Assembly (NCBI RefSeq): GCF_018777385.1
Contig: NZ_JAFJYB010000010.1
Span: forward strand, 1 to 33,635
Direction: 5' to 3'
Length of the DNA: 33,635 nt
Origin: Candidatus Symbiopectobacterium endolongispinus
Lineage (GTDB): Bacteria > Pseudomonadota > Gammaproteobacteria > Enterobacterales > Enterobacteriaceae
The stretch's first letter is position 1, and every line of letters begins with the position of its first letter. The position numbers and the translations under genes were made by a program. Under the pieces are notes generated by a model. That model searched no databases, was not told where the DNA came from, and was given only the letters and a program-made list of their open reading frames with translations. Of the stretch, positions 4,728 through 25,287 are shown in pieces.

Positions 4728-4747
4728 CAGAGGAAGGGGTTCAGTGG
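4728..4747 (-). promoter_or_regulatory. Late-operon element, copy 3 (short)
   Basis: On the minus strand this reads CCACTGAACCCCTTCCTCTG, 19 of 20 bases identical to the core of the two longer copies at 16938-16965 and 25260-25287. It overlaps the restored end of gp45 and lies 33 bp before gp46. About 25 nt further downstream is ATTCTG, a possible weak -10. It may be a late promoter, in the position comparable to the internal late promoters of Mu tail operons. This is inference from repetition and position. Confidence 0.5.
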
Positions 4748-5399
4748 TTAAGAGGGATTGCCGGCCAGTCTTGCCGCCCGAGTCGCCATCATGGCCGTGG
4801 TACGTCAGGCTAATCTTACCTGCTATGACATCGCCGTCCGTCGAATAGCTGCCGCCGGTTTGCGTGACATTACCCGTAAACGAGGCACTGTTGCCACCTT
4901 TGATTGCCAGGCCACCGTTGCTGGTGATTTTGCCCTGAGCCGTAACCTGCTCGCTGGCCGTGACCATCGGGGTATTAAAATCGGCTTTTTCTTTGGCGTT
5001 GACAACAAATTGTTTGCAGTTAACCCGGAACTCATCGCAGTCCGTTTCTATCAGACGCCCGCATTTAAGCACAATTCTGGCGCCTTCATCGGTATAGAGC
5101 GCCACTTCGCCCGGCTTGAGCGCCTGCAAGCGATAGGTTGCGTGCTCTGTCGCAATCACAATGCTGTGCGACGTTAGCCCGCCCAGCGGTAATACGATTG
5201 CCATCGTTCCCGGCAACGGGTTTGAGGTAAAGTCGTAGTGCTGAAACAGTTCACTGTCCTGCAGGGACTCTCCGGCCAGCCCTTTAGCCTGGAAGGTCTG
5301 CAACGGGCCGTTGCTGTTTACCCGCGTTAAACGGGTTCGGAACGCCAGGCGAATGCGGTTTAACACCCCGTTAATACGCCTTTCAATATCAGGCCACAT
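4741..5399 (-). pseudogene. Baseplate spike protein gp45 (Mu gpV-like), C-terminus frameshifted
   Basis: This is the tail-tip spike assembly protein. The start MWPDIERRINGVLNRI (ATG at 5399) overlaps the true stop of gene P. An N-terminal OB-like region with ELFQHYDFTSNPLPG is followed by a charged stretch, repeats of the KITSNGGLAIKGGNSA kind, and the metal-binding-type ending SLTYHGHDGDSGGKTG. After that Gly the present frame runs on to 4680 as a run rich in Leu, Pro and Cys. Adding one C to the CC near 4765 gives TGPAIPLNH and a stop at 4741, which I take as the original end (about 219 residues). The altered tail may still allow folding. Because P has also lost its frame, ribosomes finishing P now read straight into this gene. 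Confidence 0.82.
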
Positions 5400-6559
5400 C
5401 GACAATGACTGCCTCCCCTTTACCTTTGCGCTTGCGCTGTTTTTCTTCTTCGGATAGGCGTCTGGTATCCAGACACAGTCTTCTTTGAGCCTGAGCGTGG
5501 TGGTGGTGCCGTTCGGACGCCCACCGTTAAACTCGCGTCCCATCAGGAAATACACCGCATCGATACCGTGATACTCGCTGATAACGTGAATGCGCTGCCC
5601 TGGCTCCCATAACACACCGTCCGAGGTGCGGTGTCCGTGGACAATTGCCGTCAGGCTGTAACCGGATAAACGCGCGTCTGACAGCGCCTTGCGGGCGTGG
5701 TAGTTGATTTGTTCCTGATTATCCGCATCACCCACGACCATCACCTGAGGTCTGTAGTAACTGACCGTCGGGTCTTTTACCACCGCTTTCATACCGTGCT
5801 GGCCGGTCTCGGCGACGCCGGTACTCAGTCCAATATCACTGTCTGCGTCATCAACCACGTCGATGATCGCGGATTGCTTCGTGGACGAGTGCGCGTGGCT
5901 TTGGGCTAACACCGCCAGCTCTGAAAAGGATTTGTCTATCGAACTGGCATCGGACAACGACAGCACGTTATTGCCTTTACCGTCCATGCGCATGATGACT
6001 GAGGCTACCGTGGGTTTAGTGTAGTCCAGGCCACCGATGACCAGCGTCCCGTCCGGGGCAAACCACGGCCACAGGCCACGCGCGGCACAGGCACGCAGCA
6101 GCATGTCCCAGGCGCGTTCGCCAGGCCCTGCACTGATTTTGTTACTGCGAAGGGTGCCCTCGGACTCAATGCGGATCTTTGTGATACCCAGCTGGCGCAC
6201 GATTTGCGCTACCACATCAGGCAGTTCCATCTGGCGGGCAGTAAGTATCGGTGCGGCACAATCGACCAGTACCGCCGCATTGTCCCAGCCGGAAAGCGAC
6301 AAGGTAACACCGCCACGCGCCACGGTGCGCCGAACGCCGTCAATACGCCCGGTCAGCACGGTATCATCACCCACCTTGACTATGACCGGCGCACCGCGCA
6401 CCACATCGGGGGGTTCCCGGGCAGACCCAGGCTGACACTCCAGGCATCAGCGGGGATCAGAAAGTCGGAATCAATCTGGTAGCGTGACCAGTCGCCGTGC
6501 TGTTTACCGTTGATGATAACGGACACTGCCGCATTATCAGTGGCCAGATTACTCTGCAT
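5389..6559 (-). pseudogene. P: Baseplate hub protein gpP (Mu gp44), two frameshifts
   Basis: Mu gpP is a tail hub protein (Mu P/gp27-like fold) that binds the spike. The N-terminus MQSNLATDNAAVSVIINGK is cut at the run of six C (plus-strand G 6408-6413). With one more C the frame continues PPDVVRGAPVIVKVGDD and stays open through GGVTLSLSGWDNAAVLVD, AWDMLLRACAARGLWPWF and HRTSDGVLWEPGQRIHV. A second lesion is the A-run at 5440-5444: one extra A restores a Lys/Arg-rich end finishing EAVIVDVA with a stop at 5389. Without it the protein fuses to gp45. The start overlaps the end of N. The repaired length is about 390 residues. Confidence 0.87.
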
Positions 6560-8020
6560 AGGCATTCAGCACGTCCTCCATCGCCAGGTTATTCGGGTCA
6601 CGTAATTGCGGGTTGAGGCGTTGCAGCTCTGCCGCGCGGGAATAGTCCCCGTACCAGCGGTGAGCCATGAGATGAAGGTTGCCGGGGGTAGTGACGGTTT
6701 TCTGCATCAGTTGGGGTTTTTCGTTGATCACCGCTTCGGCCAGCGTCTGCACTGCCGCCGCGACAGTTGCCAGTTGGTTGATAACCGGCTCATACGACAG
6801 TCCCAGAGGCTGTGCACTGCTGCTGATATCATCCATCGTCGGTGCGTAGGTTGTCCGGATGATATCGATGGCGTCCTGTATCATCTGCCGCGTTTCGTTG
6901 GCTATCTTCTCGATATCGACCGGTGTTAATACCGCCGTCAGCGCACTATCGCTGAGGATGGCGCTGGCTTCATCAACGGCCTCCAGTGTCACGGCCACAG
7001 AGACAATCGTTATCAGTTCGACAATATCGCTGGCAACCAAATTCTGAGGCATATCAACCGGCGTATCGATACGCCCACTCACCAGACTGACCGGCATAGC
7101 CTGGACGGTCTGCAACGCTGAATAGGCGCTCGTCCAGTCAGCCATGATAACAGCGGGGTGGCGGTGTAATTGGCGGTGGCAATCTGCTGCTGAGTGACCG
7201 CCGTTGATACGCTGCCCGAGGTTACTGACGCGGTTGTATTACCGGATGTGTTGCCACCCGATGAACCGCCCCCGGATGTGTTGCCGCCGGACGATGACGC
7301 CCCGGACAATACGGTACTGCCGCCGCTGTTGACATAGGATGTGTGCAGCGAGCTTTTTGACGCGCCCATTTTTAACGACAGCGCAGAGCGCAGGTCACTG
7401 AAAAAAGCCGAGGGTGAATTGATAAAGTCAGTGGTGCCGCTGATAAACCCGCTTATGTCACTGCGGAAAATCGTTGTCATATTGAGTGCGGCTGTTGCCA
7501 GACCACGCACCTTATTCATCATCTTACGCGCCGTGCGCAATGGCTGCGTGACATTCTCCATCAGGGTATTGGCACTGTCTATCGCGGCCTGTACCTGGTT
7601 AAAAATCTCGTCGGCTTTAGATAACGGGGAGTCTTTGACGAAAAACTGGTTGCCGGTTTTTGACTGCACAAACTGAATATCCAGCGTGCAATAATCCACA
7701 TACTCGGCATAATGATTGACCTGGAGCACGCCGACCAGCATGTTTGGCATTAAACCAAAAATCGGGTGTATCAACTCGGCGGCACCGGGCTTTCTTAATG
7801 CCTCAAGTAGCGACTGGAGGCGTGACTCGTAATCATCGCCCCAGATGACCGCCTGGATCTGCGAGCTGTGCGGCTTGAGGCCCAAATCCTGAATATCCGC
7901 GCCGTCCACGTTGTGGTATTTGTGTTGGGCCATGTCACGCTGCGCACTGTCGCGGGCATTGATTACATCAAATTTAACGCCCCGGTAAGAGGCATCCCGT
8001 AACGACTCTTCCCAGGATAT
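6549..8020 (-). pseudogene. N: Tail/DNA circularisation protein gpN (Mu gp43), start codon lost and frameshifted
   Basis: The family (DNA circularisation protein N-terminus) has a conserved opening MSW-E-LR-ASYRGV-F. Here that opening is present as SWEESLRDASYRGVKFDV, but the codon before it is ATA (8018-8020) rather than ATG, overlapping the tape-measure stop as TAATA in place of the usual TAATG. The first internal ATG (7933) would remove about 30 conserved residues. A Ser/Gly/Thr-rich linker follows (SGGNTSGGGSSGGNTSG). The frame breaks at a CCCC run (plus 7155-7158); one more C gives TATPAVIMADWTSAYSAL and the complete C-terminal domain, including a LysM-like HRWYGDYSRAAELQRLNPQ. Repaired length about 490 residues, close to Mu N. 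Confidence 0.88.
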
Positions 8021-10436
8021 TATTGGTACGCTCCATTTGAACCGCGCGTGACCTGCTGGCTGTTAATTTCATTGACGGTTTCGGCAAGTACGCGGTCATC
8101 CACCTCAAGGCGGATAGTTGCCTGGATCGGACGTTCTGGTTGTTTTAGCGGAGACGGTGCAGGAGCGGGACGCATCACGTCCGGCAGACCAAGCGCGGCA
8201 GGCGGCAGACCATTGCCGATACTGGTTGGCTTGCTCCACCAGGTTGAGCTGTCATCTTTTTATCGGTTGATACTGTAAGTGGTTCGACACGAACGACCGG
8301 TGCGGGGCGAATACCCGCGCCAGTATCCGCTGACGCGCCAGGAACGGGCGGCGGACGAATGCCGGTGTTCTGGTTCAGTAGTGGAAACGTTGCGGGGGCA
8401 GCAGTGACATAACCGGGAACCCCATAACTTTCCGGCCTGGGGATATTTATAGCGCGCGGTTTATTCCACCACGCTTTGATTTCGTCCCAGGCATCCAGTG
8501 CGCCAGGCTGCGCACGTATCGAATCCTGTAGCCGCTCGGTATCGTTCGCATACTGATTCGTTGACAGGCGCTGGCGAGCGTCTTTATCACCACGCTCAAC
8601 CTGTACCAGCGGTGCATCCTGAGTCGCCTGATAGACGGAAAGCGGGACTAAGGCTTTTCCGGCGATACGACCTAATCGCCCCCACATATTAGGCATACGC
8701 GTTCCAAGGGGGGGCGTCACGGTCGGTGCGTTAGTGCCTGGCTGAACGGGAGGAACCGGCGGCGGATTTATCCCGTTACTTGAGAGTAATTTCCATGCAG
8801 CGAGAACACCACCGGCAGTGACTGCACCAGCCCCTAGAGCTTTGATACCAATTGTTGCCCCTGCAATAGCTGTTGTCAGCCCAGGGTATTCATTTGCATA
8901 ACCAGTCAACAGACCAGACAGGCGTGCGATCACATCAGAAAGTGGTTTAATTGAATCTACCTGCCCAAAATCAGCCGTATTCTTCATCTGCTCGGCTTTG
9001 AAGTCATTAGTCCCGGCAATAAGCTGATAGTTAATATCACCGGCGGTCTTCCCATCCTCTAGATTACGCTGCTCATTCGCTCCCTTGACAACATCACGGG
9101 CATACTGTCGATTACTGCGATAACCGATTAATGCCAACAGCGCTTCCTTATCTGTAATCACCTGTCCAACGGCAGAGCCTTCCAGAATTTTAGCCTGTGA
9201 CAACATAATCTGACGTCGGCCATCACCCTTAGCCAACTTTGCATCGAGTTTTTTATATGCCGGGTTAGTTGCAACAATCTTGTCTACGATGGCAACAAAA
9301 GCATCTAGGGAGTTCATCCCTTTACCTTGCGCATTGGCTAAACTTTCTGGCAAATCGATGCCTTTTCCATTTATCTTTATTCTGGATGCTGCATTTGCAG
9401 CATCTTGACTGGTTATTTTTCCTAAAAGGTTAGCAACATTATTGCCCGCTTGATCGCTACTCCCTGCTGTTATTGCAGCACTTTGATTAAGTCCCAACAG
9501 TACCGCAAAATCATTTAAGCCTTTCATCCCGTTGTTACTGGCTGCTGCTAACTGTTGTGGCAACCACTTCGCCATATCAGCCAGTTCAAATGAACCTGCT
9601 TGCCCCGCAGAAATAGCCATATTGAGTGCCTTGCTGACATCTTTATCCTCGATACCAAATGTTTGCTTTAACCGGATGGCTATCTGGGCTAAATCTGTGG
9701 GGGCGGCTCCGGCCGCAGTTGAATAGCGTTGCAGTTGCGGTAATAAAGTGTCGGCAGATTTCATATCGACCGCGCCGGAAGCCAGCAATGCATCAAGCGT
9801 ATCCGCTGCGGATTCTTTCGTCCCGCCACCTTCTTTGACTGAACGACGGATCAAGGCATCCATGCTTGCCATACCAGTCTTTCTGCCATCAACACCTTGC
9901 TCTGCGTAGGCCGTGTTCACCATCATCGCTAATCGACGCCCATAACCCATCTGGTTACGCACCGGCTGTGTGACAACAGCCGTCATGGCCGCAGCCCCTC
10001 CGGCAACGGCCATCGCTCCAGCGCCAACCGCACGTAGCTTGTCCATGCGGCTCATGGATTGGGCGGCACCGCTTAACCCCGTGCGTAACCGGCTGACGCG
10101 GTCTGTCATCGCACTGAATGCCCGTGATTGCTCACTGGCTGACATAACACCCATATGTGTAAGACGGCTGTACGCGGCGATGGTCTGCTGGATCTCGCGC
10201 TCGGAACGGATACCGAGCGAGGAGCGGGCGCTGTTGGCGCGTTTAAACTCCTCGCTCAACGCGCGGGATGCACGGATGCCTTGCTGGCTGTTCTGCTGCT
10301 GGGATTTCGCCAACTCGTCACCGGCTTTTTCCGCCGCTTTGGTCTGCGCGACTGCATCCTGCATCGCTTTGCGCAGCACCTTTGAGCTGGTATCGCGGGC
10401 GGCCAGTGTCAGGGCGAGTTGAAGATTGCGGGCCAT
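8020..10436 (-). pseudogene. Tail tape measure protein (Mu gp42-like), 3' frameshift
   Basis: It sets tail length and is threaded in the tube. The N-terminal 130 residues are helical and coiled coil (MARNLQLALTLAARDTSSKV), followed by the tape-measure core domain around QPVRNQMGYGRRLAMMVNTAYA. A hydrophobic Ala/Gly-rich segment (TAIAGATIGIKALGAGAV) and Pro-rich stretches come later. The frame is open for about 725 codons. At an AAAAA run (plus 8257-8261) it shifts; adding one A restores DKKDDSSTWW and an ending QATIRLEVDDRVLAETVNEI with stop at 8020. The repaired protein has about 805 residues. The last 80 residues are replaced by about 25 unrelated ones, so partial function is conceivable. 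Confidence 0.9.
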
Positions 10437-10439
10437 TGA

Positions 10440-10976
10440 TTATCTTCTCCCTTTCTTGTTGGGTTTTCTGGGGCGTTTCTGGCGCATTGACTTCACTCGG
10501 CGGGTTGTCTGGTCTCCGGCTGACGGGTTTTTACCGTGCAGCCGAGCCAGTGCCTGGATGTAGCCGTCCAGTTCTGAACGGCTCATTACCTCTATTTGCT
10601 GTCGGGTGATGCCGTATTTTCCGAGGGCGAGGACGACGCTGCGGTATCCGGCGAGGGCGCTCTCGATTCCATCAGCTTTTTTAAGGGCTGAGATTTGCGC
10701 GTCGATGAGGTCAAAATCCTCGTCGGACAACTGGTTAAGCAGCAGCTCCGTCGTCACGTTCTCCGCATCGATACCTTCAATCGCCACCACCCGCGCCAGA
10801 ATCCCGACGCGTTAGTGCATCCCTGCGGCGGCACCGTCCGTGGTGCCTTTCTCATCCTGGGTTTCTTCCAGGGCCGCGATGGTATCGCCCACCACCGGCA
10901 GACGAACGCTGAACGCAAAATGACGTTTACCGTCCAGCTCGACGCCATGCAGCAATGAACCTTGTTCCTTCACCAT
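10440..10976 (-). pseudogene. Tail assembly chaperone gp41, nonsense codon
   Basis: These chaperones coat the tape measure and are encoded between tube and tape measure, often with a programmed frameshift. The ATG at 10976 overlaps the tube stop (TAATG). The first 54 codons read MVKEQGSLLHGVELDGKRH onward to AAAGMH, then an in-frame TAA (10812-10814), then RVGILARVVAIEGIDAENV in the same frame; a Tyr or Gln codon is the likely ancestor. After LSDEDFDLIDAQISALKK comes a slippery-looking CTTAAAAAAG (10676-10685). The current frame continues into GYRSVVLALGKYGI and a basic tail, which resembles the extension normally reached by frameshifting. The plus-one frame gives a Ser/Pro-rich ending instead. 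Confidence 0.75.
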
Positions 10977-11352
10977 TATTCCTCCACCCGACGCAGTGCC
11001 TGAAACGTGATATCACGCCTGCCTTCGTTATCGACCGTATACTGCGCACCGACCTGGGTACTGTATGCATCCAGGTACGACACTTTTTCACCTCCACTGC
11101 CGGAGAGCGGGTACTGGGTGATCTTCACGCCCTCCATGCCCTACCAGTCCAGGTCGCCGCTCAGGGGATCACCACCGAGACCGTGACCTGATATTCCCGG
11201 ATGCCGCGCGAAAATCCTTTCGAACGCCCGGTTTTGTTCATCGTCTTGACCGGTTTACGCCCGGTCTGCGTGTCTTCTTTCAGGTCGGTACACTCGATTT
11301 CCTGTCCGTTGATCTCGAGGATAATTGCGCCAACATACTCTTCTAAGGCCAT
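10976..11352 (-). pseudogene. M: Tail tube protein (Mu gpM), frameshift plus amber
   Basis: Inner tube of the contractile tail, directly downstream of the sheath gene as in Mu. The N-terminal half, MALEEYVGAIILEINGQEIE to VTVSVVIP, is in one frame and then meets TGA. With one more C at the CCCC run (plus 11164-11167) the sequence continues LSGDLDW, then an in-frame TAG at 11141-11143, then GMEGVKITQYPLSGSG and a normal C-terminus AQYTVDNEGRRDITF to RRVEE. Two independent lesions in about 125 codons make loss of tail assembly likely. Confidence 0.85.
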
Positions 11353-11364
11353 GCTATGGACTCC

Positions 11365-12774
11365 TTACAACAACAGGTCGATACGACCGGCGAAAATATG
11401 CAACCCGTTCACCACGTCCGCCGGGATGCGGCCATTAAGTCGGTTGCTATCCTGCGAATCCCGCTCGATGATGAGCGCCGCTTTGTTCGCGTCCACCTCT
11501 TCGATGATCTCCAGTTCTTCGAGCTTGTAGAGCACGTCCAGCAGTTCGCTGCGTACCCGGTCAGGGGTGCGGGAACTCAGCTTGTCGCGCGGAAAACGCA
11601 ACGCGATACGCTCACGACACGCCTTGCGTACATAGTCGAGGGTGCGAATGGCGGTGATATCCAGCAGTGACACATCATCAACGCCCTCGGCGTTCTTGGT
11701 GTAGGTACTGATTGCCCGGACAATCTGCACCGCATCACCGGGGCCGACTTCAAACGGGGTCAGTCCGTTATATAGGGCGTTCTCCTGCTCATTACACCCC
11801 GGACGATCCGCAAGCGCGGTCACGTCCAGCGTGCTCATTGCCAGCGTGTTTAACGGTCTGGCGGGGTCTTCTTCGCTGGCGATAACGGCGGCATACGCCG
11901 CCGCAATCTGCGCCGATGTTTTCACCGAGCCGTTATGCCAGCCCACGGTAATACGACCATTGTTGATGCTGGCCGCCAGCGTTGTGACGGTGGACAGGGA
12001 TTTGTGCCATCCGGCCACGCCGATAGCACCGCGCTGCTCCAGCGGGTCGCTCACGTTGTCCAGGTGCGAGCGCAGGGCCGTTAACGCCGCCGAGGTGGCG
12101 TAAGGACTGACCACGATGTTATGACCGGCAGCAAACACTGCCGCCAGGGCGGGCGCAATATCCGGGTCAATACCGCCACCGCTCATCGCGGCCACAGCCA
12201 CCGTGATGCCGGTGGCCGTGCTACCGGCACTCAGCTTGATATCATTACCCGCTACCCCCTTGTTTTTTGCCGTCAGCGTGACAACGCCTGCCGCCACCGC
12301 TGACGTGACCGGCAGCGCGGTTTTTTGCGCAATGGCGGTATTCAGAGCCGCGGCCACAGTGGCCGCCGTGTCGTTAGCTGAAATCGCCACATCAACGCGC
12401 ACCGTTCCCACCCACAGGCTGAGCGCCCCCGAGGTCGTTGCCGTGCCGGTGACAGTGACTTTGCCGCTGGCGGCGGTTGCTGCGCTATCATAGCCGATTC
12501 CGATAATCTGCAACTGCAAATAGTTGTTACAGCCAATCGCCTCGGCGGCCATAAGGTGCGCCATCGAGCCACGTCCGAACAGGGTAGCGGCCTCTTCATC
12601 AGAGAACACATTGACCGCCTGGAGCGGTGTTGCGCTTCCGCTTTCCAGCATCAACACGTTTTGCCGATTGCCGGGCAACGTGCGCGCAGCCAGGCGGGTA
12701 TTAAACCCAAAGTATTTCCCTGGCTTGCGAATGCTGCTGCCGATTTGGTAAAACTCAACGTTAGGACTTGCCAC
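11365..12774 (-). CDS. L: Tail sheath protein (Mu gpL)
   Basis: Contractile sheath subunit of 469 residues. It is open throughout, which is unusual among its neighbours. It starts MASPNVEFYQIGSSIRKPGK and includes the sheath core segment GKYFGFNTRLAARTLPGN, an inserted Ala/Thr-rich domain (about residues 105-195), and the conserved C-terminal region around RTLDYVRKACRERIALRFPR and RSELLDVLYKLEELEIIE. It ends in FAGRIDLLL. Its start overlaps the end of the DUF2635 gene by 14 bp, and it is followed after 12 bp by the tube gene. Position, length and sequence agree with Mu L. Confidence 0.95.
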   Translation of the reverse strand: MASPNVEFYQIGSSIRKPGKYFGFNTRLAARTLPGNRQNVLMLESGSATPLQAVNVFSDEEAATLFGRGSMAHLMAAEAIGCNNYLQLQIIGIGYDSAATAASGKVTVTGTATTSGALSLWVGTVRVDVAISANDTAATVAAALNTAIAQKTALPVTSAVAAGVVTLTAKNKGVAGNDIKLSAGSTATGITVAVAAMSGGGIDPDIAPALAAVFAAGHNIVVSPYATSAALTALRSHLDNVSDPLEQRGAIGVAGWHKSLSTVTTLAASINNGRITVGWHNGSVKTSAQIAAAYAAVIASEEDPARPLNTLAMSTLDVTALADRPGCNEQENALYNGLTPFEVGPGDAVQIVRAISTYTKNAEGVDDVSLLDITAIRTLDYVRKACRERIALRFPRDKLSSRTPDRVRSELLDVLYKLEELEIIEEVDANKAALIIERDSQDSNRLNGRIPADVVNGLHIFAGRIDLLL

Positions 12775-15370: not shown

Positions 15371-15381
15371 GGCATTTCTCC

Positions 15382-15777: not shown

Positions 15778-16910
15778 TGCTTTCTCCTTTTATGAACTTT
15801 GTCACATCAGCCGGATCAACGCCCATCATGGCGCAGATGGTGACATCCACTTCGCCGTCATCCGGGCTGGTGTCGGTTTTAGGTTTAACGCCTGCGGGCG
15901 GCTGGCCCCCCGGTCTGGTTAGTGGTCAGTGCGGCGATTTTGGGCGCTTTGTCCAGGAAGGTTTTCAGGCTGTCCGGGGAGGATTGCGCCAGGGATTCCG
16001 CCCAGGCTTTTTGCGCCGGAAGCAAACGGCCATCGGAGAGCGCGGCGGTAATAAGCTTGGCACTCTGTTGCTGCGCCAGTGCCGCGACGTTGCTGTTTGC
16101 AGTTTCCAGCGCCTGGGCGACGGATTGCTGCATCACCTCAACCGACACCCATTTGACCGGGTCTGGGTTGGCAATCTGCGCGGTGAGCGCGGCAACGTTT
16201 GCAGCATCCACCGTCAGTTTTTCAATCAGATTGAACGGGGTGGCAGACAGCGTCTGAAAAGATGCCGCAGCCGTTCCGGCGCTCGCTGAGGCCAATTGAT
16301 CAATCAGTTTGTTTAACTCGGCGGTAATGTCTTCTGCTGTTGCCGTAATCGGCAAATTCAGCATCCAGCGCAGACGCTCCAGTAATTCGTCCATAGTGTC
16401 CTTTTGGGTTGATGGTGTGACGGCCAGGAGTAAGGCAGCGGCAAGCATGACCTCATCCATGCCGTCAACAGCGGGGGTGTTGGTAAGCGCGGCGTGCAGG
16501 AGCTGCAAGACGCGGTCTGATTTGTCGTAGGAAAAAACCTGGGAAATAAAACGGTAGGCACCTTCGGCGATCATCTTCGCGGCGCTGTCTGTCCAGGTAA
16601 CATCGACCGCAAACAGACCGTCACCCTCACGCCATCCCAGCGTTTTGAACCACCCGGACGCAGGCGCAGGCAAGCTGTTCTTGGCTGCCCGCAGGGTCTG
16701 GTGTTCAAAGTCGATAACGTAAGGGGTTTGCCGTGCGTTAGCTGCCGCGATCAATGCCTGTGCCACCTCGGCAGTCATTATCCAGGCATCGCACTCGGCG
16801 GGACGGCCATCACGCGCCCGGAACTCACCAGCGGGGAACAACTTGATGACGCCGAGAGAGGCTTTATTGATTTCTGCCGACAGGGCGGCGACAAGCGGTT
16901 TTAGTTTCAT
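15770..16910 (-). pseudogene. I: Head maturation protease / scaffold (Mu gpI), 3' frameshift
   Basis: It begins MKLKPLVAALSAEINKAS and has the family blocks IKLFPAGEFRARDGRP, YVIDFEHQTL and PAPASGWFKTLGWREGDGLF (Mu I/GPV-type protease), then an Ala/Gln-rich scaffold-like C-terminal half. The frame is open for about 335 codons, then changes at six G (plus C 15906-15911). With one G fewer it continues GGQPPAGVKPKTDTSPDDGE to FIKGESNE and stops at 15770, overlapping the next gene. The present product lacks only about 45 C-terminal residues, so catalysis may survive. Reading is open 65 codons upstream of this ATG, across the late element at 16938-16965. I chose 16910 because the protein family starts there. 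Confidence 0.85.
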
Positions 16911-16937
16911 GTCGCCAGAGTACGAACGGCAGCGACA

Positions 16938-16965
16938 GGTGATCAGTGGAAGGGGTTCAGTGGGT
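16938..16965 (-). promoter_or_regulatory. Late-operon element, copy 2 (full)
   Basis: A 28-bp sequence identical to 25260-25287. On the minus strand its core is CCACTGAACCCCTTCCACTG: a direct repeat of CCACTG with 8 bp between. It ends 28 bp before the protease start, and TACTCT lies 25 nt beyond the CTTCC, a possible -10. The 230-bp interval between gpG and the protease otherwise holds only a short GC stem (about 16994-17008). The three copies each precede a late operon, which suggests an activator site read by a Mor/C-family protein. Not proven by sequence alone. Confidence 0.6.
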
Positions 16966-17140
16966 ATATAAAGAGGCTTGTTTTTATCTTGCCCCGCCAA
17001 ACGGGGGGTTATGACAATCGGTGTAACCCCTTTTAAACCCCGTTTAAATCGTGTTGTAAGCTCCTTAACGGTGTAAGGGGCGTTAGCGTATGGCGTGACA
17101 CCCAAAATCTGTCCTGTGGCGTTTTTATGAAAGCCAGGGG

Positions 17141-17692: not shown

Positions 17693-17817
17693 AAATTACC
17701 CGGTGTATACTGAAAGTGCGGTGGATGGAGAGTTGTTTCCAATGGGTAACGGTTGCTGCTACGCCTTGAGCGTTTGAGCATGATCCGGTTCGAGTACGGC
17801 GCTGTTCATCCCACCGT

Positions 17818-19157
17818 CTAATCAAGACTGCCCCACAGCACTTCGTTAATCCCTCTGTTTTTCAGTGATTCATCATTCGCCAGGATTTTCCCTGTTCGTA
17901 TCAGATTGGTTTTTATCCGCTCTTTTTTCCACCCCCCGGCGGTCGGGCTTTTAGCTCACGATCAATAAACACAACCAGCTTGCCGAACGTATCAGGCAAA
18001 TCAAGCACATAGGTTAAGGCCGCATCGGCTTTCTGCGTGTTATAGAGAATGGCTCTGGGGTTCAGGATGAACTCTGGCAGGCGCTGCCATAGCGACTCAG
18101 GAAGCTGTGCGTCTTTGCTGTCACGTAGGGCGTGCAACAGATTCTCATCGGTCAAAGTGATCACCGCTGATTCCACCGCCATCCCTTTATCGGAAAGCCG
18201 ATCAACCACCTGCGGCGGCAGTGCGCCGACGTGCCGGAGCTGGCCGAGTGCCTGCTTGTTCAGCAGTGTGTTATTCACGAATGCGTTAACGTCGGTTGAA
18301 ACGGCATTTAACAGCGTCTCGTTACCCAGCGTCTGACGAACGGCCAGCGATGCCAACTGCGGCTCGGCGACGGCGGAGCGCTCAAGCAGCCGCTGACCGA
18401 GGGCAGCAAGATACCCCTGACCGGTGTTGTGACCAAAACCCGCATCCGGCGTATACAACTGGCCATTCCACTTAATCGCACTAACCCTGCGTGAATCATT
18501 CGGCCCCCACGCCTGTTCGACCTCGACGATCTCGCTGTGCTGGATGGTCACACCGCGTTTATCCACATCGGCCTGAGATAACGCACGGACGCGGCAACGG
18601 CAGTGATAACCGTCAGGCGGATACATAAACTGCCAGACCGGATCATCAATCCTGGCGGTGTAGCCATGTAACGCGGCATGGCTTGGGCGGATGTGGGTAT
18701 CCATGATCCCCACGCGCTGCAAGTAGGGACGAAAATCTGCGTTAGCGAGCTGCTCCTCGTACCGGCCCGCGTTATACGCCGCCTGCATATTGGTTTCAAA
18801 GATGGTGCGCAGACGGCGCGGGGTGAGCTTTTTCCCTTCAAGCACACCGTCTTCATCGGCCTTCAGTCCCGTACCCAGCCAGCCCTTTTGCGCAAGGACG
18901 GGAAGTAACTGCTGGTCAAACTGGCGTTGGGTGCCACCGTCATCCAGCCGCTTTTTAAAGGCTGAATTGATATCGGTCAGGATATTCTGCTTGAGGATCC
19001 CCGCGACGGTGAATGAGGTGGCATGTGCTCGGGCATCGACATCATGCCAGTTAAAGTCGATCACATAACCTTTTGACTCAAAATAGCGGATCGCTTCTTC
19101 GGGTTTCAGACCAATGGCATACTCCAGATTGACGTTGCCGGGGTTAGCTGTCGGCAT
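17818..19157 (-). pseudogene. F: Minor head protein (Mu F / gp30-like) with C-terminal nuclease-like domain, frameshifted
   Basis: The N-terminal part MPTANPGNVNLEYAIGLKPE and the F/SPP1-gp7 head morphogenesis domain are clear: FETNMQAAYNAGRYEEQLAN, RPSHAALHGYTARIDDPVW, and the metal-binding-like PPDGYHCRCRVRALS. The C-terminal 100 residues (LPEFILNPRAILYNTQKADA, LDLPDTFGKLVVFIDREL) look like the phage-linked barnase/EndoU/RelE-type domains often fused to this protein; that naming is inference. The frame breaks at six G (plus C 17932-17937). One more G restores PPGGWKKERIKTNLIRTGKI and a stop at 17818, about 446 residues. Today the protein lacks the last 35 residues. 125 bp of non-coding DNA follows. 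Confidence 0.85.
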
Positions 19158-20644
19158 TCAGTCGCCCCCTGACATCCGCCACAAACAGCGCCTGTTTCAG
19201 CAACTGCTGGAGCTGTGCGTCATCGAGCAAGGGATAGCTGGCCGCGCTGATATCCAGCGCATCGTCCGGCGTTGAGCTGGCGCTGTCCAATGCCTCCTGG
19301 GCCGGGTCTCTGATTTCACCTGGCACCGTGCTGAGTGCCGCAAAGGCGCGGTACGTGGAGACGGATAACCCGGCCAGCGGTGCCGGTGTCGGCGCACCTT
19401 CGAGCACCGGCTCGTTATTCTGCGGCACAGGGATACCGACTTTTTTATGTACCCATGACAGAGGGATGGATTTCATTCCGGCCTGGACGAGCGTAGACAC
19501 GCCGGTCGAGAACTTACCGATATCCTCCAGCTCGCTGGTATCAAAAACGAACTTAGGCAACCGGCGACGGCTGACCTGGTAGCCGTTAATGGATAAGAGC
19601 ATGTGTATCATGCCCTGGAAGAACCCGTGCAACTGTTTTGCGTCGGCGACCAGAATGTCGTGGCGCACTTCGTTATGGACGTTCCCTTGGGCGTTGGTTG
19701 AGGTTTTGCCGCCTGCCTGGCTGGTGAGCGTTCCCCCGAGTACCGCTTTTGATACCGTGCGTTCGCACCAGTCGATCATCGCCATAAACGGATCGAATTG
19801 CCCGGCGGCAGCGGCTTCAAACGAGATTTCACTACCCTGCGGGATAATACCGGCGGCGTTGTGGCCGAGTGTCACCAGGGCGTGCAATAGCGCGTTTTTT
19901 TTTGTTCTTCCGATGCCCCTTCCATGTACTTGCCGACGCGGGCGGGCAAGCCGTAAATTTCCAGAAACTCGGCAAAATCACGCACGCTGTAATTCTTGAA
20001 CAGATACGGCCAGACCAGCACGCGGTATAACCCGGACTGCGCCACGTAGCCCGATTTGGCATTGTGGGTATGCACCAGCCAGCCGAACGGCCACAGTTCG
20101 GCACCGTTCATGCTGCCATCTGACAGGCGCACCGTGTCATCAATCTCGGGGTTAGTACAGAACCAGCGATGCAGGCGCAGCGTGATTCTGTCGGGCAACC
20201 AGATATTCTCCTCAAATTCCCAGTGCTCGATTTCCTGAGCGGAGAAACCGTGGCCGATAGCTCCCGCTGCGTTGATATAATGTCTTCAAAATTGGCAATA
20301 TCATCCACCCACTCGGTGAGCATCGCCGTGAGATTCTTCTCTTCGGCGGTTGCGTTGCGCGGTGGTTCGATACTCCAGTCCAGCCCCAGCGGGGCATTCT
20401 TGCGCTTCGACATCTCGGAAAAGATATGCCCGTCCTTCTCGATCATGTCCTCAAACAAATCCGCCTGGGCGGATAAGTCGCCACACTCTGCGGCCTCAAG
20501 GATTCGTGGCAGGCGACGGATCGACAGGCCGCGTGAGGGATGTTCGGGAAAATGCCGCGTTATCTGTGCGACCCGCGCGGTCTGCGGGGATTTGAGTACC
20601 TCGCGGTTAAGCGGGCGACCAAACCGATCCAGAATTTGAGCCAT
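19144..20644 (-). pseudogene. Portal protein (Mu gp29, DUF935), two frameshifts
   Basis: The portal forms the DNA entry ring. The opening MAQILDRFGRPLNREVLKSP and the segment DMIEKDGHIFSEMSKRKNAP with GLDWSIEP are standard for the DUF935 family. The frame breaks near 20274-20281 (ATAT before NAAGAIGHGFSAQEIEHWEF). It breaks again at a run of nine A (plus T 19895-19903), after which the third part reads ALLHALVTLGHNAAGIIPQG and continues with GGTLTSQAGGKTSTNAQGNV to the end. Repair of both as one-base losses gives about 500 residues. The start follows the terminase stop by 3 bp and the end overlaps the F gene by 14 bp. Confidence 0.9.
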
Positions 20645-20647
20645 AAA

Positions 20648-22308
20648 CTACCAGCCTCCAGAGCCAAAACGACTACCCCGGTCATCAGAATCAGAATGAC
20701 GGGGAGCGGTGGTAAATGAAAATACGCCAAATCCAGACACGGCCTGCGCCCACAGTATATGTAAGGTATCCTGGCCGTCGTCATGGTCGGCCATCGGTAA
20801 GTGTCGCAACTGGTCAATCAGCGTTATCTGGCTGGGATGCAACCGTATCAGACCGTTTGCCATATGTGGCTGCAAGGACTCGATGCGCAACAGTTTATCG
20901 CTGTGCGGAGTGACGGCGCGTGCAGGCACAAGGATGCCTGCCGCCGCGCTGCGTTTTACGAGTTCGGTGCGCAGGAACTCCCGAAACTGAACAGCCTCAA
21001 CGGACCACACCAGACAGCCGTAAATACGCTGTAATTCGATAACATCAGAAATAATCTTGTCGGGCAGGCGCTTACGGATAGCCGCCTCGACCACATCCAG
21101 AATGCCGGTGTGGCGGTTAAAACCACCGACCATCAGTGCGGACGGGTCACGACTGGCACCAGCTTTGCCGAGGCTGGGGTCACACGCGCCATAGAAGATC
21201 CACTCATTAAGCCGGTTTACCCAGAACGTAATACAGTGGGCAAAAGGCGCATCTTCGCCACTGACCGGGTCATTCTGGTACTCAGAATCAAAGGTACTGT
21301 GACCGTCACGGGCGCGGATCAACATAAGCGTCAATATTGGGCGGGCTGACCATGACACCACCGCGCCCTCGTCCATTTCAAGCTTATAGCTCTGGTAGAA
21401 CGCGTTCGCCATCCATTCGCCGTTACTGTCGTTATTGCGCAGGATCTCCTCCCATTACTCCCACAACGACATGTTGACCGGCCACTGGTAACCGCTTTAA
21501 AGCGTGCTGCTTTCCACAGCGGATTTTTCAGGGTGCGCGACAGGACGGAATCGTAATGCAGGATGGTGCCGATATAGATAACGTCGAACTTGGCACCCGC
21601 GCCACCGAGCGGCAGGATGGTTTTTTCCAGCCAGTTATCCAGCTTGTCGCGCTGTTCCGGGCTGCGCACCTGCTCGTCGTTTTTGATATCATCCAGCACC
21701 ACCAAATCAGGGCGGTACGGGCCGTGGCGCAGACCGCGCAGCTTTTTACCGCTGCCCGCCACCTGCACCTTGATATCGTTGTGTGTGACAATGGTTCCGG
21801 CCTGCCAGACACGGCCACCACCTGCAACTTCGGGGAAATCCATGTCAATGCGGGGGTTAAACGCCAACTCGGCCTTGATGGCTTCCAACATCGGGTAAGC
21901 CTGATCAATGTAGTCCATCACGATGACCAGGTAATGCTTGAAGCCACAGATGATGCACCACAGCTAGAACAACTGACTGACCAGCGTTGATTTTGCCTCG
22001 CCACGCGGTGCGGCTATTGCATCATTTTCGCCTTTGGTGCTGGCGATAATTTCCGGCAAGCGCGTAAACAGGTACTTATGCAGCTCGCTCTTGTCTTTGT
22101 GGCGCACATAGTGCGGGAAGTAATGTTCGACAAAATAGTCATACCCGCTGACCGGGTCGAATACGCGTGCGCGTCGTTCAGCTATGGCCGCCGCAGACGG
22201 GTCAAAACCAACACATTCGGCTTCAATCGTCCGGCGTAGCGTTGCCGCCAGCTCCTCCAGTTCTTTGGCAAAGTCTTTGGCGGTGAGTTTGTTGGATTAA
22301 CGCGCCAT
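20648..22308 (-). pseudogene. Terminase large subunit (Mu gp28), four lesions
   Basis: Packaging motor and headful nuclease. The ATPase part has Walker A (AAPRGEAKSTLVSQ) and Walker B (RPDLVVLDDIKND). The nuclease part begins with the acidic motif FYGACDPSLGKAG. Lesions on the minus strand: TAA as codon 4 (22297-22299, MAR-stop-SNKLTAKDF), TAG at 21964-21966 (SQLF-stop-LWCII), a frameshift near 21487 (KAVT then QWPVNMSLWE after adding one C), and TAA at 21455-21457 (LWE-stop-WEEILRN). The three stops are each one transition away from a Gln codon. Repair gives about 553 residues. This gene cannot make a working terminase. Confidence 0.93.
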
Positions 22309-22512
22309 TTAATCCCCACTTAATGCCGCGTTAATCTCATTGATAATGCGCGTCTCGGCCTGATAGCAGGCTTCGCCGTAGCCCGGTAACAGATGGTGTT
22401 TTACGCCATCAGCCCAGACGAAAACATCGTCGTGGCAGCCCCGTTCTATACGGGTTATCTAACTTGCCATTACGGCGTTTTCATTGTTAATGCGAATTAA
22501 TTTGTCAGCCAT
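22309..22512 (-). pseudogene. Small unknown gene between DUF1804 and terminase, amber-interrupted
   Basis: The frame opens MADKLIRINNENAVMAS, meets TAG at 22459-22461, and continues ITRIERGCHDDVFVWADGVK to RIINEINAALSGD, stopping one base before the terminase start. The start overlaps the DUF1804 end by 8 bp. Restoring one codon (for instance Gln) would give a 67-residue protein. I do not recognise the family. The tight overlap on both sides and the good amino-acid composition on both sides of the stop argue that it was a real gene, perhaps a packaging accessory. Confidence 0.6.
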
Positions 22513-23005
22513 AACGTTTCCCTATCTCCTCGCCAAAGCCATCAAGGATGCTGACGAACGCTTCCAAGTGTTTAGGGTGCCGCTCACGGATGAACGTTGA
22601 CAGCAACTGGATAACCTCAATCGCAACAGACAGCTCACTGGTTTCCGGCAGGATCTTCTTGCTCGCCGACGTCGCCTTGTTAAAGGCATCCGCCAGGCTT
22701 GCCAGCAGTTCGACGCGCTCACGCGGTAAGATATCGGCTGCGCCGTTAAGCATTTCAAGCGTGGTCTAGTACTGCGTTACCAGCCCGGTTAATACCGCGC
22801 GACCAATATCCTCCAGGCCACCGCCCGCCATCACATGCGCCGCCCGCAACTTATCCTAGTCATCACCCGCGTCCTGCGCATCTTTCTTCCAGCGCCGTGC
22901 CGTTCCGAACGCAACGCCCGATTGCGCGGCGGCAATTTCAAGGGACATCTGCCCGAAAATGTAGGCCCGCCGCAGCTTGTCGCGGATTTCCTGCGGGTGC
23001 GCCAT
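22505..23005 (-). pseudogene. DUF1804 protein, probable small terminase, two amber codons
   Basis: It starts MAHPQEIRDKLRRAYIFGQM, a helix-turn-helix region (LEIAAAQSGVAFGTARRWKK), and continues in a single frame to GFGEEIGKRYG. Two in-frame TAG codons interrupt it, at 22856-22858 (AGDD-stop-DKLRAAHV, likely an old Trp) and 22766-22768 (VTQY-stop-TTLEML, likely an old Gln). No frameshift is needed. DUF1804 proteins lie just before the Mu-type large terminase and carry a DNA-binding N-terminus, so a small-terminase role is likely. The last third from 22753 is open but has no obvious start signal. Confidence 0.88.
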
Positions 23006-23285
23006 CACAGCCCCATCTGTGCTTTGATTAATAAAATCGTGGTGGTGATAAGCCCGCCCGCGACGCCACCGGCAATCGCGCCCTGGCGAACGGCGGCGGC
23101 TTCGATGCTGTCCATGCGATGCTCAATATGATCAAGCTGACCGGAGATCATCGACAGGTCAGCCGCCGGAAATGTCTGAGCCTGTAGCGCCGCCAGACGG
23201 TTTTTAATTCTATTCAGGGTTGGGTATCGATGCCTTCCACTACCGCACTGATGCGGCGCACACGGCGTTTTTGCCTTGCCTTCAT
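23005..23285 (-). pseudogene. Small membrane-anchored phage protein, frameshifted
   Basis: The ATG at 23285 overlaps the DUF2730 stop (ATGA). The first 23 codons (MKARQKRRVRRISAVVEGID) end at TGA after a CCC run (plus G 23217-23219). With one more C the frame continues PLNRIKNRLAALQAQTFPAA, then ISGQLDHIEHRMDSIEAAA, and a Gly/Ala-rich hydrophobic C-terminal segment (GGVAGGLITTTILLIKAQMG), about 93 residues in all. A basic N-terminus, a helical middle and one C-terminal membrane helix. I do not recognise the family. Its place in the packaging/lysis block is typical of small Mu-like genes of unknown role. Confidence 0.7.
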
Positions 23286-23524
23286 TTATCTGCTTTCCTG
23301 TCCAGTTTGTTATCAATGCGCTCAATCGAGCTTTTCAAATCACGTAACGTATCCATCAGTGATTCATGGTTGCGCAGGGCGTCATCACGCCGCTGGTAAT
23401 CATTCTTGATGCGCTCGACGTCAGCCCGCAGTGATTTCAGTGTCTCGCTAAGGCCGCGCACCACCAGGCCAAACAGCATCGAGATCAACGTCATTGCGCC
23501 ACCGAGCGTCCATTCGGGGCTCAC
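23282..23524 (-). CDS. Small coiled-coil membrane protein (DUF2730-like)
   Basis: An intact 80-residue protein, GTG start at 23524 overlapping the Rz stop (GTGA). It has one N-terminal hydrophobic segment (LGGAMTLISMLFGLVVRG) followed by a long charged helix with heptad leucines and arginines (LKSLRADVERIKNDYQRRDD, LRDLKSSIERIDNKLDRKA). This build and the place between lysis and packaging genes match the DUF2730 family of Mu-like phages. Function unknown. The family name is moderately secure. Confidence 0.72.
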   Translation of the reverse strand: MSPEWTLGGAMTLISMLFGLVVRGLSETLKSLRADVERIKNDYQRRDDALRNHESLMDTLRDLKSSIERIDNKLDRKADK

Positions 23525-24141
23525 TTGCTGCGCTCCTTATCGTCGTTATAAAACTTGTTGAGTTGCTCAAGCTTGCCGCGTAGCGTCAGGCACCATTCGC
23601 CGTAGTCGCCACTGTGGTTGAGGAGTCCGGTTGGGGAGAGTCCTCCTCGGGTGCGGGTGGCATAGGCGGAATATAAAGCAGCTCCGCCGGGGGCTTGTCC
23701 GGTGCCGGACAAGCCGTTATCGGTATAGCCGAGGTTGGCGCGTTAGAGGCGCAGGCTGTCAGGGCCAATGCCGGTAAAAGCATGACCATCATTTTTAATC
23801 GCATGGGGGATGTCCTTTTTACGCTCTTCATTGGCCTGTGAAAGTTCAGTTTGGGTTTGCAGCAGTTCGGCGGCGAGTTTGTCTGCGCGTGCTCGCTGTG
23901 CAGCCGTGTCCGCCAGGGCTTTTTGCAACGCGGCGGCGTATTGCTCGGCAGCCAGGCGCTTGTCCCGCTCATAATCCAGAATCTGCGCGGTTTTCTTATC
24001 GCTGCTATCCCGCAAGGTTTTGATAGTCGCTCGCAGATCGGTTTGCTTGGCGTGTTCTCCCGCGCTATGCCCGAACTTGTAGCCGAACGCGGCGACGGCG
24101 GCGAGTATCAGCAAGTGCGGCCAGTAGGTTTTAAATAGCGT
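23521..24141 (-). pseudogene. Rz: Rz-like i-spanin, probable lost start and one nonsense codon
   Basis: Inner-membrane spanin subunit. It has one N-terminal membrane segment (YWPHLLILAAVAAFGYKFG), then a long periplasmic coiled coil (QYAAALQKALADTAAQRARA, LAAELLQTQTELSQANEERK). The frame meets TAA at 23743-23745 (SLRL-stop-RANLGYTDNG; TAC to TAA is the simplest change) and then continues to GDYGEWCLTLRGKLEQLNKF and a stop at 23521 that overlaps the next gene's start. Just before the membrane segment there is ACG (24139-24141) preceded by GGAGG; an original ATG here is plausible. At present the frame is joined to the transglycosylase upstream. Rz1 is nested in another frame. Confidence 0.78.
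23586..23804 (-). CDS. Rz1: Rz1-like outer-membrane spanin lipoprotein (nested)
   Basis: A 72-residue frame wholly inside Rz. It has a lipoprotein signal: MRLKMMVMLLPALAL then the lipobox LTAC, so the mature protein would start at that Cys. It is Pro-rich afterwards (CPAPDKPPAELL, PPMPPAPEED), which is the signature of o-spanins. Nested Rz/Rz1 pairs are typical of phages of Gram-negative hosts; the pair fuses inner and outer membranes at the last step of lysis. This frame is intact even though its host gene Rz is broken. Confidence 0.85.
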   Translation of the reverse strand: MRLKMMVMLLPALALTACASNAPTSAIPITACPAPDKPPAELLYIPPMPPAPEEDSPQPDSSTTVATTANGA

Positions 24142-24145
24142 TAAG

Positions 24146-24740
24146 CTACGGCCTCCCCATGTCAGGTAACGCGGGGCCAGTTCATACAGAATGCGCTGCG
24201 GATAATGGCGATTCTCGCGCCAGTTGGTCGCAGCACGTCCGGCATTGACGGTGGCGACATGACCAAACCAGCGCTGACGGTCTAATCCACGCTGTGCCGC
24301 CAGTGTTTGATCGCGCTGCACCCAGCCCAACCCGCCGTTGTAGGCTGACAGCGTCATCGCCATACGCTCACAATCGCCGCGTGCGCTGACTCGCTCCCAT
24401 AGCCAGCGGTCATAGCGTGTTAAGGCGCGAATGGCTCATGCAGGATTGAAAGGTTGATTGGAGGATAATTCAGGTATGAGACGGCTGAACCATTCAGATG
24501 TTGAGGGCATAAACTGCGCCAGCCCCTGCGCCCCCACCGGGGAGACGGCGCGAAGGTTCCAGCCGCTCTCCTGGTGAAACTGAGCGGCAAAATCGGCAAT
24601 CGGGGCATCGATACCCCAATCCAGACGCGCACTGCGGATAACATCACTACGGAAAGCCTGTGCCGCAGCCGGTGGCTGGGCGGCGTTCGCATGACCAAAA
24701 AAGCCGCCAGCCCACAGCACACCAGTAGTGACCAATGCAT
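24146..24740 (-). pseudogene. Endolysin: secreted lytic transglycosylase (SLT), broken
   Basis: Peptidoglycan-cleaving enzyme of the lysis cassette. The transglycosylase core is clear: FAAQFHQESGWNLRAVSPVG (catalytic Glu in HQESGW), AQGLAQFMPSTSEWF, and AMTLSAYNGGLGWVQRD. Two or three lesions. A T-run at 24697-24702 (six; seven expected) separates the start MHWSLLVCCGLAAF from its continuation FGHANA-AQPPAA, so the reconstructed N-terminus is a signal peptide with an AxA site. TGA at 24436-24438 replaces the Trp expected in NPA-W-AIRALTRYDRW. Near the end, one more G after YLTWG would give a stop at 24146. Today the catalytic part reads in frame from the holin-like gene and is cut at the TGA. 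Confidence 0.83.
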
Positions 24741-24855
24741 CGAACAACTTCCACCAGAAGTTATGCCTGTCGGTGCTTGGTTGACCGTGTAACATCAACG
24801 TCATGCCCAAAATAAGCGACGCCAGCACTATCCAGGTGATCTGCGGCCAGCCCAT
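24647..24855 (-). pseudogene. Second small holin-like membrane protein, now fused to the endolysin frame
   Basis: Starts MGWPQITWIVLASLILGMTL: one hydrophobic segment, a short charged loop (HGQPSTDRHNFWW), then a second hydrophobic segment (LFDALVTTGVLWAGGFF). Two short membrane segments in under 60 residues suit a holin or antiholin next to a larger holin. At the T-run 24697-24702 the present frame passes into the endolysin (GHANAAQPP). With the run one T longer, this gene would end separately at 24647 and the endolysin would keep its own start. The start is 2 bp after the upstream stop. The exact native C-terminus is uncertain. Confidence 0.6.
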
Positions 24856-24857
24856 GA

Positions 24858-25211
24858 TCACAACCCCATCGCCACAGCCAGGCAGACGGCGGCAACGATA
24901 ATCGCACGGCGAATAAGCGCCGCCGCAAATACCCGATCACAGCCCGGTTTAACCGGATAGAGGCCGGATTGCATCAGGTCAGGCGAGTGCTCCAGGTATT
25001 GCCCCGGCGTGGCCTTGGGGAACAACGAGCGATCGAGCCAATACCCCAGCACGGCAGCCAGGGTGATAAGTGAAATCTTATAGATAACAACGGTAAGTTG
25101 CTGCGGCGAGACAAGGGCGATAAGCACCAATAACAACACAGCCATGAACTGCCAGCCCAGCAGCCGTTTAAGGCGGGTGATACGAAAGATTTTGTTGTTG
25201 AAAATGTTCAT
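24858..25211 (-). CDS. Putative holin, first gene of the lysis cassette
   Basis: An intact 117-residue protein. Basic N-terminus (MNIFNNKIFRITRLKRLLGW), two close membrane helices (FMAVLLLVLIALVSP; LTVVIYKISLITLAAVLGYW), a hydrophilic loop, and a C-terminal hydrophobic stretch (RRAIIVAAVCLAVAMGL). This matches the putative holins at the head of lysis operons in enterobacterial Mu-like prophages. Its GAGGTG ribosome binding site, 5 nt before the ATG, lies inside a perfect hairpin (25215-25238), and a full late element lies 49 bp upstream, so both late activation and translational control are plausible. Confidence 0.78.
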   Translation of the reverse strand: MNIFNNKIFRITRLKRLLGWQFMAVLLLVLIALVSPQQLTVVIYKISLITLAAVLGYWLDRSLFPKATPGQYLEHSPDLMQSGLYPVKPGCDRVFAAALIRRAIIVAAVCLAVAMGL

Positions 25212-25214
25212 GAA

Positions 25215-25238
25215 ACCACCTCGTATATGTGAGGTGGT
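25215..25238 (-). promoter_or_regulatory. Hairpin sequestering the holin ribosome binding site
   Basis: On the minus strand ACCACCTC, 8-nt loop ACATATAC, GAGGTGGT: a perfect 8-bp stem. The 3' arm contains the Shine-Dalgarno GAGGTG and is followed by TTC and the ATG of the holin gene. When folded, the site would be hidden. It is not followed by a T-run, so it is not a normal terminator for this strand. Timing of lysis is the obvious process to be tuned, but that is inference. Confidence 0.6.
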
Positions 25239-25259
25239 CAGTATTGAATTACGCGGGGC

Positions 25260-25287
25260 GGTGATCAGTGGAAGGGGTTCAGTGGGT
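25260..25287 (-). promoter_or_regulatory. Late-operon element, copy 1 (full), before the lysis cassette
   Basis: 28 bp identical to 16938-16965 and containing the direct repeat CCACTG-N8-CCACTG on the minus strand. It begins 4 bp after the stop codon of the zinc-ribbon gene. A TACTGA hexamer lies about 26 nt beyond its CTTCC, the same spacing as in copy 2, and could be the -10 of a lysis/late promoter comparable to Mu Plys. No good -35 is visible, as expected for an activator-dependent promoter. Confidence 0.6.

Follow-up and report, generated by a model that had tools for sequence, protein, structure and literature searches.

In the available text of the reports on bacteriophage Mu, the late promoters P-lys, P-I, P-P and P-mom use the activator C and the middle promoter P-m uses Mor (PMC4461284, PMC4287176, PMC4390567). 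The Mor site is described there as a 16-bp dyad with 5-bp repeats and a G/C-rich 6-bp spacer, which is centred at -43.5 and replaces the -35 hexamer (PMC4287176, PMC4390567). Here we describe a repeated 28-bp element in a 33,635-nucleotide stretch of DNA from Candidatus Symbiopectobacterium endolongispinus (contig NZ_JAFJYB010000010.1, positions 1 to 33,635; the whole stretch is called the window below), which carries a Mu-like prophage whose late genes are encoded on the minus strand. The locus is best read as a known kind of system, that of the Mu Mor/C promoters, with a new operator and two unusual designs of gene start. The whole reading, namely a Mor/C-type late operator, leaderless starts of the protease/scaffold gene I and of gp46, and a lysis promoter nested in a hairpin, is a prediction from sequence, to which we give a probability of about 0.72.

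As in Mu, a gene of the Mor/C family lies just upstream of the lysis gene, and late promoters stand ahead of the lysis gene, gene I and a tail gene. The predicted placement of the activator site (centre at -43.5, no -35) is the one given for P-m in the available Mu text. The locus differs from Mu in its operator sequence, in having one Mor-type gene in place of Mor and C, in the position of the third promoter, which precedes gp46 here and P in Mu, and in gene I, which is apparently leaderless here, whereas Mu I has AGCAGGA ahead of its ATG. Pseudomonas phage B3 (L042) carries three TTTTCG-N6-CGAAAA-like sites, at 11566, 19835 and 26818, which precede the lysis region, gene I and the tape-measure gene, an arrangement like that of the window down to an apparently leaderless I. 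The B3 site is a nearly perfect dyad with a 6-bp spacer, and its sequence is unrelated to that of the window's operator; a further difference is that the B3 lysis genes do not follow the early operon and have no hairpin at the holin start. The start of B3 gene I may be the ATG at 19887, 7 nt past CACTCT, rather than the annotated 19857. Among the titles listed from the mostly open literature searched, we recognised none as describing this operator, leaderless late genes or a lysis hairpin in Mu-like phages. The available portions of the papers on SuMu, KS10, Fc02, a Shewanella Mu-like phage and Mu lysis describe none of the three, and the five listed publications in which strings of the element occur are, judged by title, unrelated.

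Two of the three copies of the element are identical over all 28 bp, for which the chance expectation in 33.6 kb is ~1e-8 by an arithmetic estimate. The third (4722-4749) agrees with them at 75% of the 28 positions, its CCACTGAACCCCTTCCTCTG at 4728-4747 being a 19/20 match. All copies lie on the minus strand, the reading direction of the late genes, and each stands at the head of an operon, the genes read from them encoding a holin, the protease and gp46 (Table 1). Only these three places in the phage's own genome come within 2 mismatches of a 17-mer. A matrix made from 35 distinct enterobacterial-type operators of relatives, with the window left out, scores the window sites at 33.8, 33.8 and 31.8; the next score in the window is 7.9, and the top score on 20 base-shuffled windows (one strand) is 14.3. 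The first-pass annotation of this DNA had recorded the identical copies, the 19/20 core and a -10-like hexamer past each copy, all of which the coordinates bear out: the hexamers are TACTCT, AATACT and CATTCT, and the TACTGA and ATTCTG named at the time overlap the latter two. It had also seen no -35 hexamer, and a scan for a sigma-70 hexamer pair, which covered P-lys alone, found none at this promoter. The Mor/C-type gene that it had placed at 25609 is indeed the only one in the window. Its product matches the PF08765 profile with 40.7 bits (cut-off 24.9; E 2.6e-10), and Pfam confirms this protein and five divergent Mor-type proteins; the Mor profile gave no match at 0.001 against solved structures.

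Loci for comparison were fetched via Mor-type proteins from IMG/VR (in one case 80 of 82 matches) and from phage records. The 128 sequences compared comprised 97 with a protease match and 127 with a Mor match, 96 having both. Operators were paired by comparing the region after mor with the region upstream of the protease gene; 18 of the 96 loci had no operator pair and 15 were duplicates, which left 63 distinct loci. Four of these (L093, L094, L095 and L123) had no convincing lysis-side site, and their omission left 59. A pair search in 70 distinct loci, the only one independent of any core sequence, placed elements at the same two positions with a sequence specific to the lineage: CCACTGAAGCCCGTCAA in the ST405 type, GTGACGAACCCCGTCCCC in the Pseudomonas VW-6B type, GTGGAAGTTGCTCC and its kin in Pasteurellaceae, and CTGCTGAACCCCTTC in L091. 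Some of the 70 loci, mainly those of the MP38 group, had a best pair that did not exceed null windows. The operators have a short dyad in common, about GAA-N5-TC, a loose form of which was used in the later searches. A direct repeat, CCACTG-N8-CCACTG, had been taken for the core in the first-pass annotation; it is present in two window copies (the third carries CCTCTG) but is not conserved, being variable in the downstream half and missing from the Pseudomonas and Pasteurellaceae types.

The 20-mer pattern was found in 24 viral-contig stretches (25 matches), and every match, as far as its flanks were displayed, has after it a -10-like hexamer and the start codon of a protease gene, a lysis gene or gp46. 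A single scan of a genome collection gave seven stretches with the pattern. The promoter layout is seen in four of them (Candidatus Symbiopectobacterium, Yersinia pekkanenii) and is lacking in three (two Streptomyces, one Cerasicoccus); chance would give about 2 for 19 fixed bases, by an arithmetic estimate. Among 295 genomes drawn from the host's family the 16-mer occurs in three, i.e. in the phage's own genome (3 copies), in a second whose 2 copies have the promoter layout and in a third whose single copy does not, while a reversed-pattern control gave 0. Sites ahead of gp46, the protease gene and the lysis gene are also present in ST405-OXA48phi1.1, SuMu and Mannheimia phage 3927AP2 (the latter two scanned on the plus strand, the Mannheimia phage over the first 29.6 of 33.8 kb); VW-6B has two sites.

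In the 59 Mu-like loci identified by operator pairing, an equivalent element heads the lysis and protease operons, 25-27 bp ahead of the -10. The gap is 26 bp at 55/59 protease and 49/59 lysis promoters and 25 or 27 bp at the others, 25-27 bp being the sole gaps allowed in this count. A check made without spacing selection scored gaps of 14-39 bp at 71 sites. These came from 36 of the 38 loci whose pair score was 17 or more, after omission of 5 sites that lack a GA-N6-TC core. The mean -10 score is highest at a gap of 26 bp, with 3.52 of 6, the next being 2.54 at 23 bp. Under a lenient rule, all 74 distinct occurrences of CCACTGAA-N5-TC (in loci L004-L027 and L043-L083, obtained with the element or with Mor) show, at 25-27 bp, a hexamer that matches the -10 at 3/6 positions or more. 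This agrees with the earlier expectation that relatives have the element at the start of late operons rather than at scattered places. When the -10 is taken as -12 to -7, the centre of the core comes to -43.5. Agreement between the half-sites averages 2.0 to 3.6 of 5 by lineage, and in 56 distinct elements it averages 1.38 of 3 at the outer half-site positions, which were left free by the search.

The features of a Mor/C-dependent promoter, a -10 with an activator site at a fixed distance, are found here, and no sigma-70 hexamer pair was seen at P-lys. Very probably the element serves as operator for the only Mor/C-type activator of the phage, replacing the -35 beside a weak -10 that host sigma-70 polymerase would use. 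Each of its three copies would mark one late promoter, P-lys, P-I or P-46. A Mor dimer would bind two imperfect 5-bp half-sites flanking a C-rich 6-bp spacer, with its centre at -43.5, and bound Mor would recruit host sigma-70 RNA polymerase to the weak -10 with no -35 box.

Across the 59 loci, operator distance shows the same correlation, 0.77, with the distance between Mor proteins and with that between proteases; L076, L080 and L116, with proteases of less than 100 amino acids (aa), were dropped from this analysis. Recombinant loci separate the two proteins. The protease of L106 is 96-98% identical to those of L039, L115, L118 and L119, its Mor is 46% identical and its operator 59%, and its protease operator resembles its own lysis operator (18/22). 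L098, compared with L096 and L097, has a 99% identical Mor, a 47% identical protease and a 91% identical operator. Mean operator identity is 0.64 in the 37 pairs with protease identity of at least 70% and Mor identity below 65%, and 0.80 in the 23 reverse pairs, in which Mor is alike and the protease is not; it amounts to 0.87 where both proteins are highly similar (171 pairs) and 0.49 where neither is (1274 pairs). This pattern suggests that the operator follows Mor rather than the protease.

The cI mRNA of phage λ is leaderless. In Deinococcus-Thermus, -10-adjacent open reading frames (ORFs) are described in the available text of one report (PMC12340547). As with λ cI and, as far as that text goes, these ORFs, the -10 of gene I and of gp46 lies a few bases from the start codon and there is no ribosome-binding site; in contrast to both, the gene starts here would belong, in a temperate phage, to late structural genes that depend on an activator. 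The ATG of the protease gene stands at about the expected transcription start in 40 of the 63 loci, 37 of which were preselected for a distance of 5-8 nt between -10 and ATG; the other three (L081-L083) were added, as their distance is 9 nt when counted from an overlapping -10 and 7 nt when measured from TACTCT. The distance is 6 nt in 18 loci and 7 nt in 19. A Shine-Dalgarno sequence of at least four bases was found in 0/40, and in 34/40 an in-frame stop comes ahead of any upstream start. The gp46 start lies 6 nt from the -10 in L018, L033 and ST405 (GTG), and also in the window if CATTCT is taken as the -10. The predicted +1 is the annotated gp46 start in ST405 (L162:1801), SuMu (L164:1518) and Mannheimia 3927AP2 (L038:29094). 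Since the start codons at P-I and P-46 coincide with the predicted +1, the head (protease) and gp46 messages are probably leaderless. A hairpin at the start of I was also considered; it exceeded shuffles (<=3 of 60) in just 11/37 leaderless-type starts and is not claimed.

In T4 gene e, according to the available text, a hairpin covers the ribosome site of the lysozyme gene and has the late promoters at its 5' strand; 100-fold less lysozyme is made from the structured early RNA, the late RNA being open (PMC3014915). The lysis promoter of the window is likewise predicted to lie inside a hairpin that would hide the ribosome site, a design that, within the text available, is shown in T4. The phages are unrelated, and host sigma-70 with a Mor-type activator would act here in place of the T4 late sigma factor. 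The 3' arm in the window carries the Shine-Dalgarno sequence GAGGTGG, and the predicted +1 falls inside the 5' arm (Table 1). Neither this hairpin nor the leaderless starts had been seen in the first-pass annotation. Relatives have a stem between the -10 of the lysis promoter and the start codon of the gene, its 5' arm beginning within or directly after the -10 and its 3' arm carrying or adjoining the ribosome site. The 59 lysis sites were picked by operator and -10, with no hairpin rule, and a start codon was assigned by rule in 58. The median cost of opening the ribosome site is 16.9 kcal/mol in the read-through RNA, 5.65 in the late RNA and 5.25 in shuffled leaders (n=58). Read-through and late RNA differ by at least 5 kcal/mol at 57/58 sites, and 54/58 sites are matched by no more than 1 of 60 shuffles. 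A separate set of 66 loci (7 excluded) was selected for the hairpin and gives no frequency.

Covariation was examined in 20 distinct leaders, chosen by hand from the enterobacterial and Pseudomonas types: 7/11 pairs of the stem change on both sides, with 22 cells against 6.0 in shuffles (0/500 as high), and the number is at most 3 when slid. Two VW-6B-like rows are misaligned, and the score is lower for it. Phage B3 serves as one natural control, its holin start without a hairpin giving 4.4 versus 7.6 in shuffles. Read-through RNA from the early/mor operon would fold and cover the ribosome site of the lysis gene, and RNA started at P-lys would lack most of the 5' arm and leave the site open. 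As the site would be hidden in the former and open in the latter, the lysis protein would be made only late, and it is fairly likely that the hairpin confines translation of the lysis gene to late messages, as in T4 gene e.

Several leaders outside the window have features of their own. At ~9054 in VW-6B (L036), an ATG right after the hairpin opens a 216-codon frame, the lysozyme being annotated at 9102, ~48 nt later. Before 10759 in MP38 (L040), of the D3112-like group, a hairpin GCCGCCA-CGA-TGGCGGC adjoins the ATG of the gene after mor, and 2/200 shuffles reach its opening energy in read-through RNA; despite this hairpin, the pair search found no operator there. In Mu (L041), at 10444-10484, a -10-like TAGACT is followed immediately by GCCATCA, able to pair with TGATGGC at the lys start codon, which hints at a like design without reaching significance.

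Table 1. Promoter elements and genes of the proposed late transcription system in the window
Feature	Position	Strand	Remarks
Lysis-promoter late operator, 28-bp element	25260..25287	-	20-mer core 25266-25285; dyad core GAA-N5-TC
Lysis-promoter -10 hexamer	25239..25245	-	AATACT 25245-25240, or ATACTG one base on
Lysis-promoter predicted +1	about 25232-25233	-	from operator/-10 spacing
Lysis hairpin (predicted)	25214..25239	-	5' arm 25239-25231, loop 25230-25223, 3' arm 25222-25214
First lysis gene, holin (PF13272)	24858..25211	-	ATG 2 nt past hairpin
Protease/head-promoter late operator, 28-bp element	16938..16965	-	20-mer core 16944-16963
Protease-promoter -10 TACTCT	16917..16922	-	6 nt ahead of ATG at 16910
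Protease/scaffold gene I (PF10123)	15885..16910	-	predicted leaderless start 16910
gp46-promoter late operator, 19/20 copy	4728..4747	-	core match
gp46-promoter -10 CATTCT	4702..4707	-	6 nt ahead of ATG at 4695
gp46 gene (PF07409)	4345..4695	-	predicted leaderless start 4695
Mor/C-type activator gene (PF08765)	25609..26046	-	proposed binder of the element

The end of the Mor gene and the lysis element of the window are ~320 bp apart. A 52-aa ORF with one CxxC motif (TCLKCG) lies between mor and the lysis promoter (25438-25596, minus strand). In many enterobacterial-type relatives the lysis operator is farther from mor, at about 350-560 bp.

A number of results weigh against the proposed reading, and they are given in this and the following paragraph together with the alternatives. 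Some concern the operator itself: in the window's lineage it is a weak inverted repeat, the search pattern largely fixes two of the five half-site positions, and the 18 loci that lack an operator pair under the pair rule include Mu itself and the D3112/MP38 group. As the rule finds no pair in Mu, the element is not classed as a Mu C site. Exact phage repeats can serve recombination or packaging, and yet a recombination, packaging or other non-promoter repeat is exceedingly improbable here, given an element that is co-oriented with operon starts at a near-fixed distance and replaced by different sequences at the same places in other lineages. The element might also be the operator of another phage protein (Ner, the repressor or GemA) or of a host factor. 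In favour of this is the fact that the operator tracks the protease as well as Mor, so that general relatedness explains much of the covariation: the partial correlation is 0.31 (0.312) with the protease and 0.29 (0.293) with Mor (both p 0.001, 59 loci). The helix-turn-helix (HTH) segment of Mor, with which the element had been expected to covary, adds nothing beyond the rest of the protein (partial r 0.02), and L116 (both sites) and L123 (protease site) break the correlation, having a near-window operator and a Mor just 33% identical. The recombinant evidence, moreover, consists of few independent events, with cut-offs chosen afterwards. Such an operator is nevertheless quite unlikely, as the site is centred at -43.5 without a -35, like that of Mu Mor, and in recombinant loci it follows Mor rather than the protease gene that it heads. 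The distinct activator-operator pair suggested in the first-pass annotation is upheld in part: the placing of the element at the position known for Mor, the single Mor-type gene and the recombinants speak for the pair, whereas L116, L123 and the HTH result do not.

For the two unusual start designs the alternatives are less remote. The protease and gp46 messages would not be leaderless if transcription began upstream or another start codon were used. Leaderless mRNAs are uncommon in enterobacteria, the I frame of the window is open upstream with two TTG codons, some in-frame upstream start codon is present in 6/40 loci, and the other 23 of the 63 loci (Pasteurellaceae, Neisseria-like) have leaders before I or other spacings. 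Messages with leaders are still somewhat unlikely in view of the in-frame stops met first in 34/40 loci, the lack of Shine-Dalgarno sequences in all 40 and the three annotated gp46 starts that fall exactly on the predicted +1. The lysis hairpin, for its part, could be an intrinsic terminator of the early/mor operon that the late promoter overlaps by economy of space. Five or more T in a row come after the stem in Pasteurellaceae (23/23 Mannheimia-type leaders) and in 5/7 VW-6B-type leaders, where termination may add to or replace the hiding of the ribosome site. A terminator is unlikely as the general explanation, however: the T run occurs in 0/34 window- and ST405-type leaders, which nonetheless keep the stem, its position relative to the -10 and +1 and its pairing to the ribosome site, and a scan of the window at 24800-26500 gave no terminator-like site. 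The hairpin also has its exceptions. It is missing in L092 and weaker in L116 and L124, which together with L153 are not clearly above shuffles (in L153 the rule picked a start inside the hairpin, and the full hairpin is visible in another analysis). L091 has no start by the rule, its stem being visible by eye; a covariation measure counting further pair types remained within shuffles (76 of 500), as did the lys hairpin of Mu (40 of 200).

With a Mor/C-type operator, leaderless starts and a lysis hairpin as the preferred reading, it is about an even chance that these phages represent a widespread Mu-like group, in which activator-dependent, leaderless late promoters are combined with a lysis promoter nested in a silencing hairpin, a design that arose separately from that of T4 gene e and was built anew from other sequences in the enterobacterial, Pseudomonas and Pasteurellaceae lineages. 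The rule derived here (about GAA-N5-TC, 26 bp, -10) can be used to look for late promoters in Mu-like prophages and to correct start codons. L106 and L116 above all, and L123 likewise, offer natural variants of activator and operator for the question of Mor specificity. Two matters are opened to direct test: how the lysis genes are kept silent while the early operon may read through into them, and whether leaderless messages carry late structural operons.

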